In this document: positions 1,540 to 27,820 of the stretch, piece by piece | Layout of the letters: every line of letters begins with the position of its first letter | Numbering within the stretch: the first letter of the stretch is position 1 | IMG/VR virus record: IMGVR_UViG_3300043425_000757 | Location: 1 to 30,608 of that record | DNA length: 30,608 bases | Direction: 5' to 3' (one strand) | Source: a virus | Notes under the pieces: model-generated | Databases searched by the model: none | What the model was told of the DNA's origin: nothing | The model's input: the letters and a program-made list of their open reading frames with translations, nothing else | Position numbers and translations under genes: made by a program

Positions 1540-3813
1540 ATGAGCGCCCGCGACCTCCCGCCCCACATCCAGCGCCAAGTCTGGCTGCACCAGGCCGCCG
1601 AGCTGCGCCGCAGCATCCGCGCCGCCGTGGCCAAGGGCCTGGAGGCGATGAAGACGCCCGAGCCCCTGACCCTGGACGAATGGGCCGAGCGGCACTTCTA
1701 CCTATCCGCCGAATCCAGCCAGGGCGAGAAGCGCTGGCAGAGCTACCCCTTCCAGCGCGCCATGCTGGGCGCCATGGGCGATGACGACATCGAGGAGGTG
1801 GACATCCGCAAGAGCGCGCGGGTGGGGTATACCAAGATGCTCCTGGCCAGCATCGGCTACGACGCCCAGCACAAGCGTCGCAACCAGGCGCTGTGGCAGC
1901 CCACCGACGGCGACAGTGACGAGTTCACCAAGGCCGAGCTGGAGCCCATGCTGCGTGACGTGAAGATCATGCAGACCGTGTTCCCCCGCTTCATGGCCAA
2001 GAGCAAGCAGAACACGCTCAACATGAAGAAGTTTCTGGGGTCCATCCTGTACCTCAAGGGCGGCACCAGCGCCGGCAACTTCCGCCGCATGACGCTGCAG
2101 AGCGCCAAGCTCGATGAGTTCGACGGCTTTGACCAGAAGATCGAGAAGAGCGCAGACCCCTTCACCCTGGCCTGGAAGCGCCTGGAAGGCGCCACCTACC
2201 CCAAGATCATCTGCGGCACCACGCCCCGCATCAAGGGCCTGAGCCACATTGAAAAGCGCGAGACCGCCGCCGATGCCCGCCTGCGCTTTCACATCACCTG
2301 CCCGCACTGCCAGGTTGAGCACCCGCTGGCCTGGGGCGGCAAAGACGTGCGCCACGGCTTCAAGTGGGACGCGCACGACCCCGAAGGCACCGTGCGCCAC
2401 CACTGCCCGCACTGCCTGGGCAGCATCACCCAGGCGGACTACCTGCGCTTGTGGCAAGACGGTGTGTGGGTGAGTGAATGCGGCAACTACCGCGCCCACG
2501 GCCAGCCCTACCGCTGGACAGATGGCACGGGCACGCCCCTGCTCAAGCCCCCGCGGCATGTGGCCTTCCACGTGTGGACGGCCTACAGCCCGCAAACCAC
2601 CTGGGCCGCCATCGTCCGCCAGTTCCTGCAGTGCATCAAGGCCAAGGAAGCCGGAGACAAGGCCCCGCTCGAAGGCTTTGTGAACGAGACCCTGGGCGAG
2701 ACCTGGGAAGAAGAAGTCGAGAAGGCCGAAGCGCACGAGCTGCAAAAGCGCGCCGAAGATTACCCCCTGCGCCGCGTGCCCGTGGGCGGCCTGCAACTGG
2801 TGGCCGGCGTGGACGTGCAAGACAAGCGCTGGGAGGTCACCGTGTGGGCCATTGGCCGCGGCAGCGAGATGTGGGCCGTGGACTACCAGGTCATTGACGG
2901 CAACCCCGCCGACGAGCGCGAGTGGGAAGCACGCCTGCACCCCTACCTGCAGGCCCCGCTCACCCACTGGCACGGCGCCCCGATGAAGATCGCCGCCAGC
3001 GCCATCGACACGGGCGGCCACTTCACCCACCAGGCCTACAACTTCTGCCGCCTGCACCACGGCCACAAATACTTCGCCATCAAGGGCGACAGCAAAGAGG
3101 GCATGCCCATCAAGGGCCGCAGCAGCAGCCAGGACGTCAACTGGCGCGGCCGCATCGTCAAGGGCGGCGTGCGCCTGTGGTTAGTTGGCACTGACACCGC
3201 CAAAGACAACCTGTTTGAGCGCTTCAGGGTGCAGCGCCCAGGCGCGGGCTACATCCACTTCAGCAAGGCCCTGCCGCTGGAGTGGTTCAAGGGCCTCACC
3301 TCCGAGGTGCGCCGCACCGTGCGCACCAGCAGCGGCGAGAAGGTGCGATGGGTCAAGACCACCGCCCGCAACGAGCCGCTCGACACCACCGTCTACGCCC
3401 TCTTCGCCAGCCAGATGCTCGATCACCACAAGCTCAGCGACGCGCAGTGGGCCAAGCTGGAGAACGACCTGCTGCCTGACCTGTTTGACCTGGCCGCATC
3501 TCCCGCACCTGTGCCGCTGCTGACCCCGCCGGCCACCGCGCTGCCCCCGCTGGCCGCAGGCCAGATCGAGGTGCGTGACGCACCGCCCGCGCCGCCAGCG
3601 CTCGCCAACTCATCAGCGGGGCTTACAGGTTCGGTGACGCTGAGTGTTTCAACGACAACAGAGCCACTGTTTGCCGCCGCCGCGCCCGCCCTCAGCCCGC
3701 CACCGCCCGCCGTACTCAACACCGCCCCCCGGCGCAAGCCCGCCCCGCCGCCCGCCGCCCCGGCCCCCTTTGTCAGCCCCTTTGCCAAGCCTGAATGGAG
3801 CGCCCGCCTGTGA
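1540..3813 (+). CDS. Terminase large subunit, lambda gpA-like
   Basis: This 757-aa packaging motor and nuclease belongs to the lambda gpA family. The variant Walker A (K91-SARVGYT-K99) is nearly the lambda one. The Walker B acidic pair is D192-E193. A CPHC...CPHC zinc-finger-like pair lies at residues 254-292, and the nuclease domain opens with the AGVDVQ strand (D425). The reading frame is open back to 1360 inside the small subunit gene, but homology to gpA begins after the ATG at 1540, so I use that start. Residues from about 652 on form a Pro/Ala-rich low-complexity tail of about 105 aa beyond the usual end of the family; lambda gpA is 641 aa. The C-terminus of gpA binds the portal, so the tail may extend that contact. 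The family implies cos-type packaging. Confidence 0.93.
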   Translation: MSARDLPPHIQRQVWLHQAAELRRSIRAAVAKGLEAMKTPEPLTLDEWAERHFYLSAESSQGEKRWQSYPFQRAMLGAMGDDDIEEVDIRKSARVGYTKMLLASIGYDAQHKRRNQALWQPTDGDSDEFTKAELEPMLRDVKIMQTVFPRFMAKSKQNTLNMKKFLGSILYLKGGTSAGNFRRMTLQSAKLDEFDGFDQKIEKSADPFTLAWKRLEGATYPKIICGTTPRIKGLSHIEKRETAADARLRFHITCPHCQVEHPLAWGGKDVRHGFKWDAHDPEGTVRHHCPHCLGSITQADYLRLWQDGVWVSECGNYRAHGQPYRWTDGTGTPLLKPPRHVAFHVWTAYSPQTTWAAIVRQFLQCIKAKEAGDKAPLEGFVNETLGETWEEEVEKAEAHELQKRAEDYPLRRVPVGGLQLVAGVDVQDKRWEVTVWAIGRGSEMWAVDYQVIDGNPADEREWEARLHPYLQAPLTHWHGAPMKIAASAIDTGGHFTHQAYNFCRLHHGHKYFAIKGDSKEGMPIKGRSSSQDVNWRGRIVKGGVRLWLVGTDTAKDNLFERFRVQRPGAGYIHFSKALPLEWFKGLTSEVRRTVRTSSGEKVRWVKTTARNEPLDTTVYALFASQMLDHHKLSDAQWAKLENDLLPDLFDLAASPAPVPLLTPPATALPPLAAGQIEVRDAPPAPPALANSSAGLTGSVTLSVSTTTEPLFAAAAPALSPPPPAVLNTAPRRKPAPPPAAPAPFVSPFAKPEWSARL

Positions 3814-24197: not shown

Positions 24198-24665
24198 ATG
24201 CCCACCTCACCCACCCCCATCACCACGCTGCCCACGGCGCCCAGCCGGGCAGACCCGGCCAACTTTGCCACCCGGGCTGATGCCTTTCTCGGCCAGCTGC
24301 CCACCTTTGGCACGCAGGCCAATGCGGTGGCCTCGGTCACGTACACCAACGCCGTGGAAGCACTGGCCAGCGCCAATGCTGCGCAGGCTGACCGCATCCT
24401 GGCGCAGGCGGCCCTGGCCGGCATCACGGCGCAAAGCCCAGCGGTCAACGCGGCGGCTGCAGCTGCCAGCGCAGCCGCCGCAGCCGCCTCGGCGGCAGTG
24501 GCACAGGCTGTCAGCCCCGACAGCCCGGTGCGCTTCAACACCCGCCGCATCGACGCCGCCTTGACCATTCCCAGCGCCTACAACGCCGGGTCCACCGGGC
24601 CCATCGCCATCGCTGACGGCATCACCGTCACCGTTCAAGACAACGCCACCTGGAGCATTCAATGA
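24198..24665 (+). CDS. Tail fibre adaptor, Ala-rich coiled coil
   Basis: A 155-aa protein. The N-terminus (PTAPSRADPANFATRADAFLGQLPTFGTQANAV) is the common start of phage tail fibre proteins. A helical Ala-rich stretch (about 55-105) suits a trimeric coiled coil. The last 40 residues (RRIDAALTIPSAYNAGSTGPIAIADGITVTVQDNATWSIQ) are the short beta cap often found at the end of fibres. GAAGGA at 24181-24186 could be its ribosome-binding site. It overlaps the DGR target gene by 4 nt (ATGA), so the two products are likely made together and probably meet in the virion, with this one as anchor for the variable protein. Confidence 0.7.
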   Translation: MPTSPTPITTLPTAPSRADPANFATRADAFLGQLPTFGTQANAVASVTYTNAVEALASANAAQADRILAQAALAGITAQSPAVNAAAAAASAAAAAASAAVAQAVSPDSPVRFNTRRIDAALTIPSAYNAGSTGPIAIADGITVTVQDNATWSIQ

Positions 24666-26005
24666 GCACTCTTGTCACCCGCACCATTCAAACCCCTGAC
24701 GGCTCGGCCGTCGCTTTCCCCAACGGCATCCGCATCGGCACAGGCGGCGCCGGCACGGTCAACCACATCGGCGTGGCCGGCCAGCAGGGCTTTGGCGTGG
24801 GCATCGCGCCCGAACTGCCCGCCGGCTTTGCCAAGCTCTACGGCACGGAAGACCCCGCCAGCGAGAACTACGGCAACTACCAGTACAGCGACGGCTCGGT
24901 GATGGTCTACATCCCGGCCTTCTACTACCGCTACGGCACGGGCAGCAACGGCGGCGCCATCAACGTGGTGGACATCAAGCCCTTTAGCCACTGGGCCAGC
25001 GTGGCCGATGCCAACGCTGCGGGCTACGCCCTGCACCGCGCCTTCTACAACGGCGGCAGCATCCGCCAGGGCGTGTTTGTGGACAAGTACCTGGCCAGCA
25101 ACAACGGCGGGGTGGCGTCCAGCCTGAAAAACGGCGTGGTCATCACCAGCGCACAGCGCGGCAGCCTGACCACGGCCACCTTCGCCAGCCTCACGGGCGC
25201 CCCATCCAACAACCTGGCCGGCGCCATTGCCGCAGCCAAAACGCGCGGCAGCCGCTTCTTCTGCAACACCCGGTTCATCCGCGGCGCCCTGGCCTTGCTG
25301 GCCAATGCGCACGGCTCAGCCGCCACCGGCACCACCTACTGCGCCTGGTACAGCGCCGGCAGCACCAACTTCCCCAAGGGCTGCAACAACAACGCGTTGG
25401 GCGACACCAATGACGGCGCTATCGCCTTTGTGGACGACGGCAACGGCACCTACGCCTGCGGCAAGACTGGCAGCGCCAACTTCATGGCGCGCACCACGCA
25501 CAACGGCCAACTCTGCGGTATTGCAGACCTCAACGGCGTGGTTTGGGAAACAGAGCTGGGCCTCACCTCCAACGGCACCAACTTCTACGTGCTCAAGACT
25601 GCCGCGGACGTGGCCACCATCACCGGCGGTACCACCCTGGCCACTGACGCCTGGGGCGCCACCGGCTTGGCCGCGCTGTACGACAGCATTGGCGCCACGT
25701 ACGAGAGCTTGACCAACTCGGCCAGCAACAAGGTGTTCGGCAACGCGGCACAAGTGCTCAGCGCAGCCACCAGCGGCACCGCCTGGGGATTTGCCGGCCT
25801 GGGTATTCCGCTGGTGGGCGGTGTGGGTGGCAGCAACCAGTTCGGCAACGACTACCTCTACGACGCCCGCACGACAGACCTCTGTGTGCTCTCTGGCGGC
25901 AGCTGGGGCATCGGCGGCGATGCCGGTGTCTGGGCGCTGCGCTTGGACTACTCCCGCGCCGGCTCGAGCAACGGCATCGGGTTGCGTGCCGCCTCTTACC
26001 TGTAA
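24662..26005 (+). CDS. DGR target: variable tail protein with C-type-lectin-like domain
   Basis: This 447-aa protein has a beta-rich N-terminal region and a C-terminal domain with the pattern of DGR variable proteins (formylglycine-generating-enzyme/C-type lectin fold). Supporting segments are VWETELGL, AWGFAGLGIPLVGG, LCVLSGGSWG and GVWALRLDYSRAGSSNGIGLRA. The last 41 residues hold the variable region. Residues 414, 416, 417, 427, 429, 430, 434, 436, 437 and 438 are encoded by AAC in the template; here they are S, G, I, R, D, Y, G, S, N and G. The conserved W415 and the VWAL and IGLR strands lie in fixed positions. The ATG overlaps the fibre adaptor stop, with GGAG at 24653-24656 in front. 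It most likely binds the host receptor at the tail tip. Confidence 0.9.
   Translation: MSTLVTRTIQTPDGSAVAFPNGIRIGTGGAGTVNHIGVAGQQGFGVGIAPELPAGFAKLYGTEDPASENYGNYQYSDGSVMVYIPAFYYRYGTGSNGGAINVVDIKPFSHWASVADANAAGYALHRAFYNGGSIRQGVFVDKYLASNNGGVASSLKNGVVITSAQRGSLTTATFASLTGAPSNNLAGAIAAAKTRGSRFFCNTRFIRGALALLANAHGSAATGTTYCAWYSAGSTNFPKGCNNNALGDTNDGAIAFVDDGNGTYACGKTGSANFMARTTHNGQLCGIADLNGVVWETELGLTSNGTNFYVLKTAADVATITGGTTLATDAWGATGLAALYDSIGATYESLTNSASNKVFGNAAQVLSAATSGTAWGFAGLGIPLVGGVGGSNQFGNDYLYDARTTDLCVLSGGSWGIGGDAGVWALRLDYSRAGSSNGIGLRAASYL
25880..25996 (+). repeat. DGR variable region (VR)
   Basis: This 117-bp block aligns without gaps to the template at 26523-26639 (offset 643). I count 17 mismatches, all at template adenines: 12 A to G, 3 A to C and 2 A to T; nine of the 26 template adenines are unchanged. 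No other base differs. The mismatches are at 25889, 25902, 25907, 25908, 25911, 25916, 25919, 25940, 25941, 25946, 25949, 25961, 25962, 25968, 25973, 25974 and 25992. Homology stops abruptly on both sides. Confidence 0.97.
25977..25996 (+). other. Probable initiation of mutagenic homing (IMH) site
   Basis: The GC-rich 3' end of the VR, which in known DGRs marks where cDNA integration begins. Its only difference from the template equivalent (26620-26639) is C at 25992 against A at 26635. This may be a fixed IMH/IMH* difference rather than a mutagenesis event. Confidence 0.65.
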
Positions 26006-26012
26006 CTCTGAC

Positions 26013-26034
26013 GCCTGGCGCGAAAGCGCCGGGC
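26013..26034 (+). promoter_or_regulatory. DGR target-recognition hairpin/cruciform
   Basis: GCCTGGCGC (26013-26021), loop GAAA (26022-26025), GCGCCGGGC (26026-26034): a 9-bp stem with one T-G pair and a GNRA-type loop. It lies between the target gene stop and avd, 16 nt past the end of the VR. Known DGRs of the Bordetella phage BPP-1 type need a GC-rich hairpin of about this size and loop just downstream of the VR for efficient retrohoming. No such hairpin follows the template repeat. It could also act as a weak attenuator, but no T-run follows. Confidence 0.8.
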
Positions 26035-26041
26035 TCATGCC

Positions 26042-26518
26042 ATGACGCATCAGAACCGCAGCATCCATGCACAGGCCGGCTTGCACCGCAAGCTGGTGCT
26101 GTTTGCCGCGCAGCTGGAGATGTATCTGGCGCACTTTCCTTCGTGCCATAAGTACGCGCTGACGCAGCAGATCCGCGCGACCTACGTGGACGTCTACAAC
26201 CTGGTGACGGAGGCGCAAAAGCGCTACCACAAGCGCACCACGCTTACCCAGCTGGATGTGCGGCACGAGCAACTGCGCATGCTGCTGTTGCTGGCCCACG
26301 AGCTGGGGCTGTTCAACTTCAGCCGGGGCAAGCAAGACCCAGAACGCCCCGGCGAGCACCGGGCGCTGGTCATCTTGCGCCTGGTGGACGAGCTGGGCCG
26401 CATGATTGGCGGCTGGCTCAAGACGGAAATGCAGCCCGGGCCACAAGCCCAGGGCGCGCCGGCCACCGTGCCGGCAGAAGAATCCGGCAGCCTGGCTGCC
26501 GGTGCGGTGGGGGCTTGA
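26042..26518 (+). CDS. avd: DGR accessory variability determinant, Avd-like
   Basis: A 158-aa, mostly helical, basic protein. Its four-helix plan, length to about residue 125, and position between target gene and template repeat match the Avd family. In the BPP-1 system Avd forms a pentameric barrel that binds the reverse transcriptase and the DGR RNA and is needed for cDNA synthesis. Helices run about 5-32, 38-65, 67-95 and 104-130; the closing IGGWLKTEM corresponds to the conserved end of the family (LGSWI in BPP-1). The last 30 residues are an Ala/Gly/Pro-rich tail not found in the short Bordetella Avd. No clear Shine-Dalgarno: the recognition hairpin ends 7 nt before the ATG. Confidence 0.85.
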   Translation: MTHQNRSIHAQAGLHRKLVLFAAQLEMYLAHFPSCHKYALTQQIRATYVDVYNLVTEAQKRYHKRTTLTQLDVRHEQLRMLLLLAHELGLFNFSRGKQDPERPGEHRALVILRLVDELGRMIGGWLKTEMQPGPQAQGAPATVPAEESGSLAAGAVGA

Positions 26519-26522
26519 CATG

Positions 26523-26639
26523 CTCTGTGTGATCTCTGGCGGCAACTGGAACAACGGCAGCAATGCCGGTGTCTGGGCGCTGAACTTGAACAACTCCCGC
26601 GCCAACTCGAACAACAACATCGGGTTGCGTGCCGACTCT
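26523..26639 (+). repeat. DGR template repeat (TR)
   Basis: The invariant donor copy of the VR, lying between avd (stop 26516-26518) and the reverse transcriptase, the same order as in BPP-1. It contains 26 adenines, arranged mainly as ten AAC codons in the reading frame of the target; AAC is the codon form that allows most amino acids on A-mutagenesis without creating stops. It is transcribed in the same direction as the reverse transcriptase and would form the core of the DGR RNA. An ORF runs through it but has no support as a gene. Confidence 0.97.
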
Positions 26640-26800
26640 GAGCCTGGCTTGCCACATGCGGCATTGGCCGACCGGCGCAGAGGGAGCCCCCGTCGCGGCT
26701 GGTGCCGAAATCTGCCGCCCAGGCGCCCTTCAGTAGCCCGCTCAGCCCGTGTTGGCAGACCGGCGACCACTGGCGCCCAGGCACCTCAAGGGGCGCACGC
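26640..26800 (+). ncRNA. Spacer of the DGR RNA, TR to reverse transcriptase
   Basis: A 161-nt stretch without a supported gene. In known DGRs the RNA 3' of the TR is structured, binds the RT-Avd complex and helps prime cDNA synthesis. Its length here fits that role. Near its 3' end AAGGGG (26788-26793) is the ribosome-binding site of the reverse transcriptase. RNA ends and folding cannot be fixed by eye. Confidence 0.5.
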
Positions 26801-27820
26801 ATGAAGCGCCACGGCCAGCTCTTTGACCTCTTCGCGCACCCGCAGGCCCTCATGCAGGCCTACGTGCGCGCCCGCGAAGACAAGCGCAACAGCCGAGGCT
26901 GCTTTCTGTTTGAGCGCAACCTGGGCGCCAACATCCACGCCTTGCATGACGAGCTGCGCAGCCGCACCTACCAGCCCCAGCCCGTCAATGCCTTCTGGAT
27001 CAACGACGGCCGCAAGCCCCGCCTGATCGAGGCCCCAGCCTTCCGCGACCTGGTGGTGCAGCACGCCGTCTACGCCGTGGTGGGCCCCCTGTTTGAGCGA
27101 CGCTACATCGCCACCAGCTTTGCCTGCCGCACGGGCCTGGGCACCCACGCCGCCGCTGACTGGCTGCAAGCCGCCATGCGCCGCGCACCGCGCACCGCCT
27201 GGACGCTGCACGTAGACGTGCGCAAGTTCTTCTACAGCGTAGACCGCCAGACCCTGGCCATGCTGGTGCGCCAGGTCATCAAGTGCCCTGACACCCTGCG
27301 CCTGCTGGATTTGTTCGCCCAGCGGCCGGCACCCGCTGGCATTCCCATCGGCAACCTGATGTCGCAGACCTTTGCCAACCTGTACCTCAACAGCCTGGAC
27401 CACTTCTGCAAGCGCCAGCTCGGCGTGCAGGACTACGGCCGCTACATGGATGACGCCGTGATGGTGGCACCCAGCCGCGCCGCAGCCGCGCAATGGCTGG
27501 ATGGCATCCGCCAGCACCTTGGCCTGCTGGGGCTTGAAATCAGCCACCACAGCCTGCAGCCCCTGCGCCGCGGCCTCAACTGGGTGGGCTACCGCACCTG
27601 GGCCCGCGCGCGCTTTGTGCGCCCGCGCCTGGTCAGCCAGGTGCGCGCTGACGCCCGCGCCGGCCGCTTACAGGCCATCGTTTCACGCCTGGGCCACGCG
27701 CGCCACACGGCATCTCACCAACCCCTCGTCCACTACCTGACGGAGCACCACCATGCCCTCTCTCATCGCCTACCGCAAAACCATCACCGCCATCAACACC
27801 TTCGAGCTGCGGCTGCCTGA
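26801..27820 (+). CDS. DGR reverse transcriptase
   Basis: A 339-aa reverse transcriptase that copies the TR RNA with adenine-specific errors. Motifs: domain 1 region RKPRLIEAP (71-79); first catalytic Asp in LHVDVRKFFYSVD (D139); domain 4 GIPIGNLMSQ (180-189), where SQ replaces the SP of group II intron and retroviral enzymes, the hallmark of DGR enzymes; the catalytic YMDD (215-218); and the domain 7 region LNWVGYR. I use the ATG at 26801 with AAGGGG 7 nt upstream; the frame is open back to 26702 but that part is spacer. The last 22 codons overlap the next gene in another frame and code a His/Ala-rich tail. There is no endonuclease domain, as usual for DGR enzymes. Confidence 0.95.
   Translation: MKRHGQLFDLFAHPQALMQAYVRAREDKRNSRGCFLFERNLGANIHALHDELRSRTYQPQPVNAFWINDGRKPRLIEAPAFRDLVVQHAVYAVVGPLFERRYIATSFACRTGLGTHAAADWLQAAMRRAPRTAWTLHVDVRKFFYSVDRQTLAMLVRQVIKCPDTLRLLDLFAQRPAPAGIPIGNLMSQTFANLYLNSLDHFCKRQLGVQDYGRYMDDAVMVAPSRAAAAQWLDGIRQHLGLLGLEISHHSLQPLRRGLNWVGYRTWARARFVRPRLVSQVRADARAGRLQAIVSRLGHARHTASHQPLVHYLTEHHHALSHRLPQNHHRHQHLRAAAA

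Follow-up and report, generated by a model that had tools for sequence, protein, structure and literature searches.

The DGR of phage BPP-1 has a hairpin just past its VR and in front of avd, with a GC-rich stem and a GAAA loop; this hairpin or cruciform is needed for efficient retrohoming, and both the stem structure and the loop are required (Guo et al. 2011, PMC3240598). The hairpin is absent after the BPP-1 TR, and directionality has been credited to mismatches in the 21-bp IMH (PMC3240598). Hairpins of other phage DGRs have a 4-nt GRNA loop and a stem of 7–10 bp, and lie 4–34 bp after the VR (PMC3240598, Figure 5). Nanoarchaeal DGRs also have a hairpin downstream of the VR with a loop running from G to A, but theirs is a GRA triloop inside the target gene (PMC4372165). 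The targets of group IIC introns, as touched on in the discussion of PMC3240598, likewise bring together a retroelement RT and a stem–loop, although there the loop sequence matters little and the context is that of a terminator. The manner in which cDNA enters a DGR target is still open (PMC12875486), and natural variants of the hairpin constrain this step directly and testably by revealing the strand that folds, the invariant bases and the pairs for which G.A can substitute.

A complete DGR with a hairpin past its VR

The window analysed here is an IMG/VR virus record of 30,608 bases with genes for tail, portal, head-protease and endolysin. At 24662–27820, all on the + strand, lies a complete DGR with the gene order of BPP-1 (target gene with VR, hairpin, avd, TR, RT), which has a DGR-type RT, an adenine-biased TR/VR pair, an Avd gene and an IMH/IMH* difference. 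The target gene (24662–26005) is an open reading frame for a 447-amino-acid product of the tail-fibre/variable protein type, with weak matches to tail-protein PHROGs, and carries the VR (25877–25998) at its 3′ end. This VR pairs with the TR at 26520–26641: 18 of the 28 TR adenines differ, whereas non-A positions match at 91 of 94, with 3 of 94 changed. No second VR was found in the window, the next best candidate reaching 51/94 non-A matches. The gene avd (accessory variability determinant; 26042–26518) was assigned by Pfam bAvd (PF22296, E 7.9e-13, above the cut-off), and the DGR RT (26801–27820) by Pfam RVT_1 (8.2e-14) and by the YMDD and IGNLMSQ motifs in its translation, which is about 36% identical to BPP-1 Brt.

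After the TR (26640–26720), a stretch like GCAnAGAGGGAGCCCCCGTCGCGGCTGGTGCCGAAA is common to all near relatives (alike in L004–L029) and probably belongs to the RNA spacer from which cDNA synthesis is primed. Rfam gave no match anywhere in the window, this stretch included, and the TR–RT spacer has no fold advantage over its shuffled versions (z +0.9).

The hairpin, GCCTGGCGC-GAAA-GCGCCGGGC, occupies 26013–26034 (left arm 26013–26021, loop 26022–26025, right arm 26026–26034), exactly where the first-pass annotation had placed a GAAA-loop hairpin. That annotation described a 9-bp GC stem lying 16 nt past the VR. The nine pairs are present, but one of them is T26016.G26031, so the stem is not all GC; and the position just past the VR stands with a spacing of 14 nt, counted from the end of TR/VR homology at 25998, the earlier figure having come from a slightly earlier VR end. 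The avd start at 26042 is 7 nt past the end of the hairpin. Folded with DNA parameters, the 22-mer reaches −10.8 kcal/mol, whereas shuffled versions average −4.9 (z −3.6), and in its local context it gives z scores of −4.1 as DNA and −3.5 as RNA. It is the only GNNA-loop hairpin with a stem of at least 8 bp on the + strand of the window, and first-order Markov shuffles of the window lead one to expect 0.18 such hairpins of at least 9 bp per + strand. Nine-bp stems are not rare if any 4-nt loop is allowed (four on the + strand of the window against 1.45 expected under the Markov model), so it is the loop and the position that carry weight, the stem alone being weak evidence.

The likeness to BPP-1 extends to the place just past the VR and before avd, the GC-rich stem, the identical GAAA loop and the absence of a hairpin after the TR. 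The two differ in stem length (8 bp in BPP-1, 9 bp here, with another sequence and the T.G pair) and in the spacer after the VR (4 nt compared with 14 nt). With its 9-bp GC-rich stem, a GAAA loop that fits GRNA and its place 14 nt after the VR, the window hairpin falls within the published ranges for phage DGRs. It belongs in itself to the already known BPP-1 kind; what is added here are the counts of its core and covariation, a class of stems with tandem G.A pairs and a strand bias.

Signs of activity and the start of transfer

The RTs of two near relatives, L002 and L003, share 98% identity with that of the window. All of the VR differences that separate them from the window fall at TR adenines (18/18 for L002 and 19/19 for L003), whereas the TR (0/122 differences) and the intergenic stretch with the hairpin (0/36) are unchanged. 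Because the VR has changed at template adenines only while the TR and the hairpin have stayed identical, the DGR of the window looks active from these comparisons.

Among 36 relatives, the columns of TR adenines are scattered in the VR as far as column −14. Farther downstream, A26635 of the TR stands against C25992 of the VR, and 33 of 34 relatives have C at this VR position; TR and VR diverge after 25996. Between the last variable adenine column and this first fixed A/C column lies a 15-nt tract without A, TCGGGTTGCGTGCCG (25977–25991). Given the variable columns upstream of it and the fixed column 25992 downstream, we infer that transfer from the TR starts inside this tract, which would be the counterpart of the (GC)14/IMH of BPP-1. 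The fixed mismatch at 25992/26635, together with the later mismatches, is the IMH/IMH* difference. The first-pass annotation had taken the absence of the hairpin after the TR to explain one-way transfer. The absence itself is borne out, no comparable hairpin having been found after the TR in the window, but it does not serve as the sole explanation, since BPP-1 directionality is credited to IMH mismatches and a fixed IMH/IMH* difference is present here too.

The hairpin recurs after related VRs and covaries

Relatives were gathered by RT searches, which brought in 26 viral loci at first and 80 later (overlapping sets), together with 3 genome loci and named phages. VR/TR pairs found by script yielded 75 distinct post-VR flanks, loci cut off before the VR being left out; the loci are kin to each other, and the counts that follow are of non-independent samples. 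The core GC-GNNA-GC (GCGNNAGC) was looked for in the 62 nt that follow each repeat: 61 of the 75 VRs have it there and 0 of the 75 TRs, compared with 1.4 in shuffled sequence and 2.7 in random stretches. Scoring with a free loop length often placed the frame off by one base and barely told VR flanks from TR flanks, and was replaced by a GNNA anchor and the fixed core pattern. The anchor rule found a GNNA hairpin in 66 flanks, making 53 distinct hairpins; it favours C-G closure and tandem G.A by a bonus, so the fixed-pattern count is the cleaner test. When every IMG/VR contig was scanned for exact matches to one pattern per hairpin class, all hits (12/12 and 6/6) were DGR contigs already found by RT.

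Across the 53 distinct hairpins, the closing pair is C-G in 52 and T-A in one, and the second pair is G-C in 50, C-G in two and A-T in one. The loops are GATA (28), GGTA (15), GAAA (3), GACA (3), GCTA (2) and GGCA (2), and what is conserved is therefore GNNA and not the GAAA that had been predicted from the window. The compensatory changes proposed as a check were found. In the 24 distinct hairpins of Watson–Crick type, 92% of cells are paired, as against 60% after shuffling and 33–49% when the arms are slid; two-sided changes occur in 7 of 8 pairs, with a covariation score of 0.77 against 0.19. In this family, the stem is kept by structure and not by sequence. A GCTA loop, outside the published GRNA consensus, was seen in L023, L024 and L037.

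The other 29 of the 53 distinct hairpins form a tandem G.A class, with A.G and G.A at positions 3 and 4 (for example, GA-GC-[GATA]-GC-GA) and an outer stem beyond the G.A pairs that often has a bulge of one or two bases. Such stems, like the GCTA loops, lie outside the description of phage-DGR hairpins in PMC3240598. In all 53, positions 3 and 4 go together: both hold standard pairs or both hold A.G/G.A, with no single-mismatch intermediate, and the RT tree calls for at least five (5–6) switches between the two states. The window and L010–L013 make up a Watson–Crick group nested in the G.A clade, so the perfect stem of the window is probably derived, by two changes from A to C, one on each arm. 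A Watson–Crick inverted-repeat search after the VR had found almost nothing and had suggested relatives without a hairpin; anchoring on the loop revealed the tandem G.A class. A reading of the stems with G.A pairs and a bulge as kink-turns was dropped, because the bulge is on the 3′ side of the G.A pairs and L028 does not have it. In L053, L056, L066, L070 and L072, the outer stem is down to one to three pairs with CGAGCGRTAGCGAG intact, so a full outer stem may be dispensable where the core has tandem G.A.

A post-VR hairpin is not universal among DGRs. None of this kind was found within 62 nt of either VR in the distant, multi-target DGRs of Shewanella phage vB_Sb_QDWS (L096) and Burkholderia phage Magia (L100), nor after the VR of L030 and L087. 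The post-VR flanks of L096 (VR ends 1929 and 2421) and L100 (2846 and 3332) are near-identical between both phages, which may mark their targets in another way. In Pseudomonas phage LPPA56 (L101), GC palindromes of 8–9 bp follow both VRs (2597–2620 and 3287–3308), with loops CCC and GCA.

A role at the target site, as the first-pass annotation had proposed in calling the hairpin a recipient-site element, is supported by its location, its loop, the covariation, its presence after nearly all related VRs, its absence after all TRs and the BPP-1 experiments. We consider it very likely that the hairpin at 26013–26034 marks the target site of a BPP-1-type DGR, and by analogy with BPP-1 it would be needed for efficient retrohoming in this phage.

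Pairs and loops favour the sense strand

Where the sense strand has G.A, G.T and GNNA, its complement would carry T.C, A.C and TNNC. The internal non-Watson–Crick pairs in the 24 Watson–Crick-class stems are G.T (7), G.A (4) and T.T (2), with no A.C and no C.T, and come from about six or seven lineages. The sense strand was also more stable than the complement in all six cases folded with DNA parameters. With G.A and G.T pairs and GNNA loops favouring the sense strand, none favouring the complement, and the sense strand folding better, selection seems to see the sense strand, as far as these patterns reveal it.

Stable RNA tetraloops follow the rule GNRA. The third loop base in the 53 distinct hairpins is T in 45, C in 5, A in 3 and G in none, so that T or C in 50 of the 53 goes against this rule. 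Very stable DNA minihairpins have a GNA or GNNA loop and at least two G-C pairs (PMC4686876), and by its bases the GC-GNNA-GC core matches these rather than RNA GNRA loops. The minihairpins d(GCGAAAGC) and d(GCGAAGC) are known from oligonucleotide chemistry, as cited in PMC4686876; the octamer GCGAAAGC is present verbatim at 26020–26027 of the window, and the family shares the core GC-GNNA-GC. The literature searched offered no link between DNA minihairpins and DGRs. The same minihairpin chemistry fits the archaeal GRA triloops (PMC4372165) and an L101 hairpin with a GCA loop.

We put it at about an even chance that the target hairpin of this DGR lineage has been selected as a one-strand, sense DNA hairpin with a minihairpin core and, in the commonest class, tandem G.A, the symmetric cruciform being a by-product. 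Recognition of the cruciform itself, with both strands of double-stranded DNA folded, would leave the target-site role unchanged. T7 endonuclease I cuts both strands of a supercoiled BPP-1 plasmid, so hairpins can form on both (PMC3240598), but it is only the sense strand that gains stability from tandem G.A, from G.T and from the GNNA loop, and we regard the cruciform as unlikely to be the recognised form. The BPP-1 hairpin is a perfect stem and hence silent on the strand.

A 2026 study in E. coli proposed annealing of the cDNA to whichever strand is exposed on the lagging template, with the stem–loop prolonging the open state; deletion of the stem–loop impaired editing severely but not completely, and placing the cDNA-complementary strand on the lagging template was favoured (PMC12875486). 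As the cDNA-complementary strand is the sense strand, our pair and loop counts would be independent evidence pointing the same way.

In the mechanism that we favour, with a one-strand hairpin on the sense strand, the RT–Avd complex would make adenine-mutagenised cDNA from TR RNA (mutagenic retrohoming), and a point inside the A-free tract, just upstream of the hairpin, would be where this cDNA enters the VR. Placed a few bases beyond the VR, the hairpin would raise the efficiency of cDNA entry there and not at the TR. The form kept by selection would be a sense-strand DNA hairpin built on the GC-GNNA-GC core, not a symmetric cruciform and not a structure of the mRNA, and the sense strand would be the one to which the cDNA anneals. 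The hairpin would probably act in one of two ways, by holding the site open or by being bound by the DGR complex.

These patterns suggest a search rule for DGR targets, namely GC-GNNA-GC roughly 18–42 nt after the VR with G.A allowed; a plain inverted-repeat search misses such targets. If the one-strand reading is true, DGR surveys based on Watson–Crick inverted repeats would have missed the tandem G.A class.

Other readings of the hairpin

The first-pass annotation had also suggested that the hairpin, lying in the leader of avd, could influence avd translation. In the mRNA, it might tune translation or couple avd to the target gene: in the window, 7 nt separate its end from the avd start codon and its RNA fold is strong, and avd lies within about 25 nt of the loop in most relatives. 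The distances nevertheless point to the VR. From VR to loop they are steady, at 18–25 nt in most of the wider clade of the window, whereas those from loop to avd run from 3 to >120 nt, and in L074, L078 and L093 the hairpin is 21–23 nt after the VR yet 129–165 nt before avd. Moreover, GNRA, the stable RNA loop class, is found in only 3 of the 53 distinct hairpins, the hairpin and its immediate surroundings do not regularly hide a ribosome-binding-site motif, and at the first VR of L101 the GC hairpin precedes a second target gene and not avd. The suggested influence is thus unsupported, and we think it improbable that the hairpin acts as an avd leader in this way; such a role may exist in some phages, but it does not explain why the hairpin is conserved.

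The target-site hairpin might also be incidental to a protein-binding sequence, GAGCGATAGCGA, which is highly conserved in the G.A class of relatives and in which AGCGAT AGCGAT would form a direct repeat. This is very improbable, as the sequence is lost and the pairing kept in the other 24 distinct hairpins, and in L028 the inner pair has changed to T-A with the fold retained.

That the GC-rich stem, right behind the stop codon, is a transcription terminator or attenuator between the target gene and the DGR genes is hardly credible, given that no T-run follows it in the window, that avd, TR and RT, which have to be transcribed, follow it on the same strand, and that many relatives have weak, mismatch-bearing stems.
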